A stretch of 64,000 bases of DNA from NCBI RefSeq assembly GCF_002198655.1, contig NZ_MWLN01000194.1:20815-84814 (forward strand), in the 5' to 3' direction. Below, piece after piece: positions 40,100-59,931 of the stretch. The position numbers and the translations under genes were made by a program. The stretch comes from Kineosporia sp. A_224. Its GTDB lineage: Bacteria; Actinomycetota; Actinomycetes; Actinomycetales; Kineosporiaceae. The notes beneath the pieces are model-generated. The model did not search any database, was not told the origin of the DNA, and saw only the letters and a list, made by a program, of their open reading frames with translations. Numbering within the stretch: position 1 is the stretch's first letter; the number at the start of each line of letters is the position of its first letter.

Positions 40100-40897
40100 T
40101 CAGCCGCCGCTGCGGTGCGCCGAGCGGATGCCCTCGTACCAGCGCAGCACCCGGGCCTCGACGACCCGGAAGACCCAGGCGAGGGTGACCCCGAGCAGCC
40201 CGAGCACGATGATGCCGGTCCACATCTGCGGCACGGCGAACGTCCGCTGGAACTGCACGACCGTGAACCCGATCCCGTTGCTCGCCGCGAACATCTCGCT
40301 GATGACCATGAGGATGATCCCGACCGACAGCGCCTGCCGCAGGCCCGTCATGATCTGCGGGCTCGCGGACCGCAGGACGAGCGAGCGGACCCGCCCGGGG
40401 CCGCGGATGCCGTAGCTGCGGCAGGTGTCGGCCAGCACGGGGTCGACGGCGCGGACCCCCTCGACCGTGTTGAGCAGGATCGGCCAGAGGCAGCCGAAGA
40501 CGATGACGAGCACCTTCATGAGGTCGTCGATCCCGGCGACGGCGACGAGCAGCGGCACGGTCGCCGGCGGCGGGACGGCCCGGAAGACCTCGAGCACCGG
40601 TTCGACGAGGGCCCGCAGCACGGGCGACGACCCGATGAGCAGCCCGGCGCCGACGCCGACGACGGCGGCCAGCCCGTACCCCGTGAGCAACCGGGCCAGG
40701 CTCGGCAGCACGTCGGAGACGATGCGCGCGTCGGCGCCGCCCGCGAACCACGTGTCGGGCAGGACGGCGACCACCTCGCGCAGCGGCGGGAAGTAGAAGC
40801 TCTCGCTCCCGTCGCTGGTGACCCACCAGGCCGCGAGGAGGACGGCGGGCAGCGCGACGACCTCCGCCGCACGGCGCAGCCGCGCGCCGACGCTCAC
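40100..40897 (-). CDS. NitT/TauT-type ABC transporter permease
   Basis: 265 aa with about six membrane helices and the SsuC/TauC-type EAA-like loop (DTCRSYGIRGPGRVRSLVLRSASPQIMTGLRQAL). The start GTG at 40897 overlaps the stop of the other permease by 4 nt. It is the last gene of the order ATPase-permease-permease and forms half of the heterodimeric channel. The transported substrate is not predictable. Confidence 0.9.
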   Translation of the reverse strand: MSVGARLRRAAEVVALPAVLLAAWWVTSDGSESFYFPPLREVVAVLPDTWFAGGADARIVSDVLPSLARLLTGYGLAAVVGVGAGLLIGSSPVLRALVEPVLEVFRAVPPPATVPLLVAVAGIDDLMKVLVIVFGCLWPILLNTVEGVRAVDPVLADTCRSYGIRGPGRVRSLVLRSASPQIMTGLRQALSVGIILMVISEMFAASNGIGFTVVQFQRTFAVPQMWTGIIVLGLLGVTLAWVFRVVEARVLRWYEGIRSAHRSGG

Positions 40898-57963: not shown

Positions 57964-58848
57964 GTGAGCACGACCGTCTGCGTCACCGGAGCCGCCGGGA
58001 AGGTCGGGCGGTACGCCGTCCACGAGCTGCTGGAGCACGGGTACCGGGTGGTCGCGGTCGACACCGTCGCGCACCCGCCGACGCTGCCCGCGGTGTGGTC
58101 GCGGGACGACTTCACCTACCTGCGGGCCGACCTCGAGGACTTCGGCGACACCGTCGACGCGCTCGGCGGTTGCGACGCCGTCGTCCACGTCGCGAACATC
58201 CCGGCGCCGGGCCTGATCCCGCCCGCACGCACCCTCAACCGGAACAACCTCATGAACACCAACGTGTTCCTCGCCGCCGCGCAGCTGCGCCTCACCAAGG
58301 TCGTCTGGGCCTCGAGCGAGACGACGCTCGGCCTGAACTTCGGCGACGGCGGCCGGGCGCCGCGCTACGTGCCGCTCGACGAGGACCACTACCCGCACCC
58401 CGCGACGACCTACTCGCTGTCCAAGGTCGTCGCCGAGACGACGGCCGAGCACGTCGCGGCCTGGAGCGGGATCCCCTTCCTCGCGCTGCGGTTCTCCAAC
58501 GTCATCCTCCCCGAGGAGTACGCCGCGTTCCCGACCTACTGGAGCGACCCGGCCTCACGCGTGTTCAACCTCTGGAGCTACATCGACGTCCGCGACGCCG
58601 CGCTCGCGTGCCGGCTCGCGCTGGAGTCCGACGTCACCGGGGCCCGGGCCTACGTCATCGCCAACGAGGACTCGGTCATGACGACCCCGAGCGCCGACCT
58701 CGTCGAGCAGGTCTTCCCGGGGACGCCGCACAAGACGCCCGTCGAGGGCAACGCGTCGCTCATGACGAGCGCCCGGGCCCGCGCCGAGCTGGGCTTCGTG
58801 CCGCAGCACCCGTGGCGTGACCAGGTGCAGGTGCCGCCCGCGGGGTGA
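57964..58848 (+). CDS. NAD-dependent epimerase/dehydratase family protein
   Basis: 294 aa of the extended SDR fold. TGAAGKVGRYAV is the dinucleotide site, and YSLSK supplies the catalytic Tyr and Lys with Ser in ASSETTLG. Substrate unknown; nucleotide sugars or uronate derivatives are usual. The GTG start has GGAG 8 nt upstream. It is a single-gene unit between the hydrolase and a LexA-type box. Confidence 0.88.
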   Translation: MSTTVCVTGAAGKVGRYAVHELLEHGYRVVAVDTVAHPPTLPAVWSRDDFTYLRADLEDFGDTVDALGGCDAVVHVANIPAPGLIPPARTLNRNNLMNTNVFLAAAQLRLTKVVWASSETTLGLNFGDGGRAPRYVPLDEDHYPHPATTYSLSKVVAETTAEHVAAWSGIPFLALRFSNVILPEEYAAFPTYWSDPASRVFNLWSYIDVRDAALACRLALESDVTGARAYVIANEDSVMTTPSADLVEQVFPGTPHKTPVEGNASLMTSARARAELGFVPQHPWRDQVQVPPAG

Positions 58849-58868
58849 CGGCGCGGCACCACCAGAAT

Positions 58869-58884
58869 TCGAACACGCGTTCGA
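58869..58884. promoter_or_regulatory. LexA-type SOS box
   Basis: TCGAACACGCGTTCGA: perfect half-sites TCGAAC and GTTCGA with 4 nt between, matching the actinobacterial/Gram-positive LexA consensus recalled as TCGAAC-N4-GTTCGA. A weak promoter (TTCGAC / 19 nt / TACGGT at 58905-58910) overlaps it. The only gene downstream is the transglutaminase-like one at 59050. Confidence 0.6.
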
Positions 58885-59049
58885 CAACCGGGCGTCTTCT
58901 GTCGTACGGTCGGACCCGGTGGGAACGGCGCACGACTGTGCGGAGCCGTGCGCCGCCCACCGCTTCCCCGCACCAGCAGAACGTCCCGCTCGCTTCGCCG
59001 GGTCCGCCGCGGGCCCCGTCGGACGACCTCCCGACGCCCCGAGGCCGCC

Positions 59050-59931
59050 ATGCCCGCTGTCATCGACTACGCCCTCCCCGGCCCCCTCACCGACCTCACC
59101 GGGCTGCCGGACGCCGTCCTGCCGCCACCCGCGGAGCCGCTCGTGCTGTGCGGGGTCGCCCGCGGGCTCGTCGTCCCGCCGCCCGGCGCGCAGGCGCTCG
59201 GCCTGCCGCCCGGCCGGTCGACGACGCACCAGGTCAGGCCCGCCGCGGACCTCCTGCGCGCGGTGCTGGCGCTCGACCCCGCACCGCTCACCGTCGCCCG
59301 CCCGCCGGCGCGCCGCGTCGTCGGCACCTGCCGGCACGTCGCGGTGATCACCGTGGCGCTGCTGCGGCACCACGGCGTCGCGGCCCGGGCCCGGTGCGGG
59401 TTCGCGACGTACTTCGAGCCCGGCCGGGGCGTCGACCACTGGGTCGTGGAGTACCGGACGGCGCCGTCCGGCCGCTGGCGCCGGGTCGACCCCGAGCTCC
59501 CGCCCCCGGCCGATGCTCGCGCCGGGTACCGCTCCGGGGCCTCCGACGGCGCGGTTCCGGTACCGGAGGTGAGCACGAGCGACGGGGCGGCGGTGGCCGG
59601 GGAGTTCCTCACCGGCGGCGAGGCGTGGGTGGCGTTCCGGCGCGGGGCGGTCGACGCGTCCCGGTTCGGGGTGGCAGGCACCTCGGACGCCTGGGGGCCG
59701 GCGGAGATCAAGGGCAACGCGATCCGCGACCTCGCAGCGCTCAACAAGGTCGAGGTGCTGCCCTGGGACGAGTGGGGCCGGATGACCGACGCGTACGCCG
59801 GGCGGACCGGCCCCGACCACGACGCGCTCGTCGACGCGGTCGCCGCCGTCTGCGGTGCCGACGACCCCGCGTTCGTCGCCGACCTCTACGCGCGCGACGA
59901 GCTGCGTGTGCCGGAGCACCTGCAGCGGTGA
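59050..59931 (+). CDS. Transglutaminase-like protein
   Basis: 293 aa. The papain-like triad of transglutaminase-core proteins is visible: Cys ~94 in GTCRHVAVI, His ~131 in VDHWVVEY, Asp ~147 in RVDPEL. The C-terminal half (VAFRRGAVDASRFGV; GNAIRDLAALNKVEVLPWDEWG) agrees with a family of bacterial transglutaminase-domain proteins of unknown role, probably proteases or amidases. No signal peptide, so cytoplasmic. The start codon is 166 nt downstream of a LexA-type box, so damage induction is possible. Confidence 0.87.
   Translation: MPAVIDYALPGPLTDLTGLPDAVLPPPAEPLVLCGVARGLVVPPPGAQALGLPPGRSTTHQVRPAADLLRAVLALDPAPLTVARPPARRVVGTCRHVAVITVALLRHHGVAARARCGFATYFEPGRGVDHWVVEYRTAPSGRWRRVDPELPPPADARAGYRSGASDGAVPVPEVSTSDGAAVAGEFLTGGEAWVAFRRGAVDASRFGVAGTSDAWGPAEIKGNAIRDLAALNKVEVLPWDEWGRMTDAYAGRTGPDHDALVDAVAAVCGADDPAFVADLYARDELRVPEHLQR

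Follow-up and report, generated by a model that had tools for sequence, protein, structure and literature searches.

The window, that is, the whole stretch of 64,000 nucleotides of DNA from the soil bacterium Kineosporia sp. A_224 that was analysed, holds a gene that very probably belongs to the SOS regulon as a single-gene unit, repressed by LexA, induced by DNA damage and encoding a putative enzyme of the transglutaminase fold. The box, its context, the promoter layout, conservation within the genus and a catalytic triad recognised by sequence carry this reading, and from them we infer the rest. The features concerned are as follows.

58869 to 58884, forward strand: LexA (SOS) box TCGAACACGCGTTCGA, both arms perfect (12/12 arm positions)
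58880 to 58885, forward strand: putative -35 hexamer TTCGAC, which shares bases with the right box arm and is proposed from its sequence and its spacing to the -10
58905 to 58910, forward strand: putative -10 hexamer TACGGT, starting 20 nt after the box
58917 to 58962, forward strand: 46-nt hairpin with a 16-bp stem, an AA bulge and two further inner pairs, beginning at the predicted transcription start
58985 to 59049, forward strand: leader segment of 65 nt, reaching the start codon and invariant in three genomes
59050 to 59931, forward strand: transglutaminase-like protein of 293 aa (PF01841) with the putative triad Cys94-His130-Asp147

In the undamaged cell, LexA on 58869-58884 would cover the -35 region and block transcription. 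Upon DNA damage, RecA would bring about self-cleavage of LexA and the promoter would open. The mRNA would then carry a stable hairpin at its 5' terminus, which is placed near 58917, and its product would probably be a cytoplasmic enzyme in which Cys94 serves as the nucleophile, assisted by His130 and Asp147. Most likely, this enzyme would act on a protein or peptide in the damage response, hydrolysing or transferring amide bonds. LexA control would have arisen in the genus of the window and also, it appears independently, in a clade of the same protein family that is Streptomyces-like.

The sequence-only reading had described an ideal SOS box upstream of this gene, and a box with perfect arms is indeed present at 58869-58884. 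Its two 6-base arms are intact, its spacer, ACGC, is not palindromic, and 165 nt separate it from the ATG at 59050. It also agrees with the Streptomyces motif tCGAAC-N4-GNNCGa published in PMC9380542, as given in the available text of that paper. Searching the source genome (7.2 Mb, 242 contigs) for the arms pattern TCGAAC-N4-GTTCGA returned 14 matches versus none for the control, the same pattern reversed; with one mismatch allowed, the counts were 48 versus 8. Composition models of order 0-3, built from the window with its G+C content of 75.6%, expected the arms pattern 0.0006 to 0.011 times in 64 kb and 0.07 to 1.2 times per genome. When the whole 16-mer was searched in the window with up to three mismatches, three matches were found versus 1.23 expected, which is not significant, and two of the three were the two strands of the single site 58869-58884. 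A chance palindrome was rejected via the genome counts and the promoter layout, and the box is real and unlikely to be a product of chance. As a separate observation, the window carries at 40590-40605 the sequence TCGAGCACCGGTTCGA, which differs from the box by one arm mismatch.

A plausible target was assigned for 13 of the 14 perfect-arm sites in the genome, the window gene being one of these targets. The lexA gene has one box matching at 12/12 positions and a second one at 11/12, a dinB-type polymerase gene, identified by its IMS domains, is preceded by a perfect box, and for recA a box of 11/12 lies some 190 nt ahead of the ATG taken as its start. Furthermore, nine DUF222-type genes (L003, L005, L006 and L009-L014) each have a perfect LexA box; eight of them were assigned via Pfam, and L013, for which Pfam gave no match, is 78% identical to L012. 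A 16-mer identical to the window box occurs at L002:1501-1516, between a Fic gene and a DUF6504-HEPN_SAV_6107-PHP arrangement, and the PHP-domain gene near this box was read as the putative start of dnaE2. The perfect box at L004:1501-1516 was left without an assigned gene, and a nearby 120-aa frame on the plus strand had no match in Pfam.

The best single argument for a working operator came from the promoter layout. In all nine boxed DUF222-type promoters, TANNNT lies exactly 19 nt after the box and is followed 6 nt later by the ATG; TANNNT is likewise found 19 nt after the box in the transglutaminase-like promoters of both other genomes of the genus. Its frequency in the window is 0.00019 per position. 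With 20 nt in the window promoter, this near-equal spacing in the DUF222-type and transglutaminase-like promoters speaks for the box as a working operator over the -35.

Box and promoter were retained in 3/3 genomes of the genus examined, even with a different upstream neighbour; the closest named relative, Kineosporia sp. R_H_3, shows 90% protein identity. Both other genomes have intact arms and the spacer ACAC instead of ACGC. Over the box and leader, the three genome pairs were identical at 172/180, 160/177 and 161/177 positions, and at the fourfold-degenerate sites of the gene, they were identical at 149/190, 160/188 and 155/188 positions (78-85%). The distance from the end of the epimerase gene to the box is 483 nt in the metagenome-assembled genome of L064 (MAG L064), compared with 21 and 19 nt in the two remaining ones. 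In MAG L064, this interval carries a NADAR remnant (L064:2379-2736, minus strand) that is missing there in the other two; a 90-aa piece of it matches PF08719, and a C-terminal piece is read in another frame. This arrangement in the MAG may reflect an assembly error. Across the three genomes, the box keeps its place beside the transglutaminase-like gene rather than the upstream neighbour.

The search for related loci yielded 77, two from members of the genus and 75 others. Absence of the box in orthologues, which the sequence-only reading had named as counting against its proposal, was observed in part, since the box was kept in all three genus genomes examined but not beyond them: a box of at least 11/12 within 500 nt upstream was absent in 75/75 other relatives, a count that includes eight loci (L080, L086, L087, L088, L090, L094, L095 and L096) whose frames fall below 230 aa, which were kept out of the alignment, and whose "upstream" is partly coding where the match begins inside the gene. 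Sites of 10/12 occurred in 6/75 relatives versus 0.88 expected by shuffling, and four of the six were the same Rhodococcus site 249 nt upstream. Within the taxonomic family, the gene was matched in 5/13 genomes, and no box was found near the two distant homologues, L018 and L019, of this family-level search. Since none of the 75 other relatives has a box of at least 11/12, LexA control of the gene looks like a genus-level gain, and damage control is probably lineage-specific rather than ancestral to the protein family. Conservation across a wide orthologue set does not define an SOS gene; its lack here confines the claim to the genus.

At the class level, the protein family was found in 16 of 394 genomes searched. 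Re-scanning the relatives with the published Streptomyces LexA motif gave a full match in 4/97 loci (the two genus members, L139 and L140) versus 7/1206 control segments. L139 and L140 come from two members of genus g59, which we take to be Streptomyces because L133 (g59) lies at zero tree distance from Streptomyces aureus L069. Among 199 g59 genomes searched, 28 matches were obtained, and the proteins of this clade are approximately 33-40% identical to the window protein over the aligned part. In the first set of loci from the L140 clade, the motif was present in 11 of 16 usable loci; it was found in none of the 12 next-nearest loci and in 1/277 controls. A prediction written beforehand stated that about half of new loci would be boxed, and 11 of 15 new loci had the motif (controls, 0/180 segments; shuffled mean, 0.008), although these 15, taken from a search of 392 genomes of the genus that included the earlier ones, are close relatives of the earlier loci and hence not independent events.

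In total, the motif was found in 22 of 31 clade promoters, with nine lacking it; L156, whose locus is cut short by the end of its contig and showed no site, was excluded and would make the count 22/32, and a second gene copy in G675 stands outside the counts. Twenty of the 22 sites lie 23-24 nt after a TTTGRCA element (L139, L140, L152-L155, L159, L161, L162, L179-L188 and L192), and the motif matches of L165 and L166 lie far upstream without the promoter element. The right arm in this clade is never GTTCGA, so that LexA is likely, but not certain, to act there. Box position differs as well, being over the -35 in the window's genus and downstream of the promoter element in the Streptomyces-like clade. 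A tree of 114 rows, built by a quick method before the 15 new loci were found and omitting L037, L084, L156 and the eight short-frame loci, placed the two boxed groups far apart, with six changes needed and at least four forced by well-supported branches. LexA control was apparently acquired on at least two occasions, two gains being the simplest reading, and one old gain with many losses stays formally conceivable.

The encoded protein matched Pfam PF01841 at 27.5 bits versus a cut-off of 23 (42.1 bits for the L140 protein). PF01841 was the only Pfam family at E up to 0.1, with no match to the model of the secreted microbial transglutaminase (MTG, tga); NCBIfam gave no match at E up to 1, and the defence and phage libraries gave none. 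Weak profile matches were obtained to TgpA (6g49, E 0.0034) and 3isr (E 0.032). The structure model had a mean pLDDT of 88.2, and its top structural matches were mostly transglutaminases but partial, the best having Z 9.4 and 4.2 Å over 176 residues, with Foldseek TM scores of about 0.3 and E values of 0.004 or worse. Residues C94, H130 and D147 were invariant in the 51 aligned rows of alignment A1, made of the window protein and 50 of the 69 loci that remained once frames below 230 aa had been dropped. Across the family, the Cys-His-Asp triad was intact in 126/129 members; in L165, of the second clade, the catalytic Cys is replaced by Arg.

The ATG at 59050 was taken as the start; several relatives have an in-frame stop just before the equivalent start, in L021, L022, L023 and L027 only 12-27 nt before it. 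An N-terminal extension from GTG 58948 was rejected, though its frame is open in three genus members, because the R_H_3 leader has a 2-nt indel and the relatives have a stop near the start. By eye, no signal peptide was seen in the sequence, and the protein was therefore taken as cytoplasmic. No recurrent neighbour family emerged among 65 neighbour proteins of the relatives, picked from 192 frames found by a simple ORF caller around 34 loci; the commonest, epimerases, accounted for 3/65, two of them from the window's genus (25 of 108 families listed).

Between the putative promoter and the gene, the hairpin at 58917-58962 is identical in the three genus genomes, with local z values of -4.65, -4.01 and -3.59, and the linker between it and the 65-nt segment varies. 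Three genomes support the hairpin and, its sequence being identical in them, they offer no covariation. The region 58963-59070 was not notably structured (z +0.73), and the whole 154-nt stretch 58917-59070, when folded, was not unusual (z -0.55). Rfam returned four matches for 58800-59200 at E 0.21-4.6, all far under their gathering scores. When the leader was used as a DNA query (E up to 10), matches were obtained in 58/58 genomes, of which only the three genus members covered the full query; those listed from outside the genus were short pieces with E 1.4e-5 or worse, and no full-length leader was found outside the genus among these 58 genomes. Protection of the 5' end or adjustment of translation may be the role of the hairpin.

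Three other explanations have to be weighed against direct LexA control. A chance origin of the palindrome, or its use by another palindrome-binding regulator, with the gene outside damage control, is quite improbable. The order-2 model gives the upper expectation of 1.2 perfect-arm sites per genome, which leaves room for one chance site among the 14, the L004 site lacks an assigned gene, and an ArsR motif of E. coli is similar to the SOS box of mycobacteria according to the available text of PMC8151990; however, the window box shares its layout with nine other boxed genes, its arms were kept while the spacer changed within the genus, and the second clade again shows a LexA-type motif. We also regard it as unlikely, though deserving some weight, that a regulator other than LexA, for instance a convergent PucR-type neighbour, uses the site found in the Streptomyces-like clade, and that LexA control is confined to the window's genus. 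In addition to the deviating right arm, a homologous gene lies convergently downstream in 15/31 loci by blastp grouping, and that of L140, the one tested, is PucR-type by Pfam. Nevertheless, L155, L159, L161 and L185 are boxed without this neighbour, whereas L157, L158, L160 and L164 have the neighbour and no box, and the clade site matches the LexA motif in the available text of PMC9380542 at each of the ten fixed positions, an agreement for which the scan itself had selected.

The conserved leader, acting as a cis-acting RNA sensor or attenuator, might instead be the main control in place of LexA, for which we see only a slim chance. The hairpin and the 65-nt segment are invariant in three genomes whose fourfold-degenerate sites are 78-85% identical, the hairpin z is about -4, and among the 58 genomes searched the leader in full length was found only in the three genus members, but no Rfam match came near its gathering score, the whole-leader fold was not unusual, and no T-run follows the hairpin. 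Moreover, most boxed Streptomyces-like loci have only about 36-60 nt between the beginning of the site and the start codon, which leaves no room for a leader of this kind. LexA control through the box remains the preferred reading. The original suggestion that a cysteine peptidase-like gene had come under LexA gains support from the boxes of lexA, dinB and recA, the promoter layout, conservation within the genus and the second-clade motif.

The products chiefly associated with SOS regulons are repair polymerases, nucleases and checkpoint proteins. Among the matches listed in our literature search, which took in main texts, mostly of papers readable without subscription, there was none that described a PF01841 protein as being directly controlled by LexA. 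A wider proposal, which we consider evenly balanced between right and wrong, is that a stand-alone transglutaminase-like family was recruited to LexA at least twice in actinobacteria, at different promoter positions, forming a damage-induced protein-modifying arm of the SOS response (cross-linking, deamidating or proteolytic) that we did not find described, and that the window's genus tuned it further by a leader with a 5'-terminal hairpin. That a distant cousin has, it seems, been placed separately under this switch hints at a genuine role for the enzyme when DNA is damaged. If the proposal is true, one gene family gained the same control twice, and protein modification as a step in the response of bacteria to damage would become directly testable, with ready hosts in Streptomyces.

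The secreted microbial transglutaminase gene tga of S. mobaraensis belongs to an unrelated family. It resembles the present case in that a LexA link was reported in an actinobacterium, but, according to the available text of PMC11157053, the effect of LexA on tga is indirect and its promoter is not bound. With the actinobacterial LexA/SOS regulon, the genome analysed here shares boxed lexA, recA, a PHP-domain (dnaE2-like) neighbourhood and DUF222-type genes, and in this, it resembles the RecA-dependent list of M. tuberculosis, which in the available text of PMC8151990 includes lexA, dnaE2 and five HNH endonucleases; it differs in the gene described here, as the word "transglutaminase" does not occur in the main texts, as distinct from the supplementary target tables, of PMC9380542 (Streptomyces venezuelae) and PMC8151990 (M. 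tuberculosis). The window protein resembles the PF01841 superfamily, with its solved relatives 3isr, TgpA (6g49), factor XIII and TG2, in its Cys-His-Asp triad, a score above the cut-off and the lead of transglutaminases in fold searches, whereas it stands alone at 293 aa, has no NCBIfam match and matches the known structures in part. Finally, the boxed DUF222-type genes of the same genome have the same arms and a near-equal spacing from box to -10 (19 nt, and 20 nt for the window gene), but their ATG follows directly on the promoter, 6 nt after the -10, whereas in the window gene a leader of some 133 nt, with a hairpin at its 5' end, comes in between.
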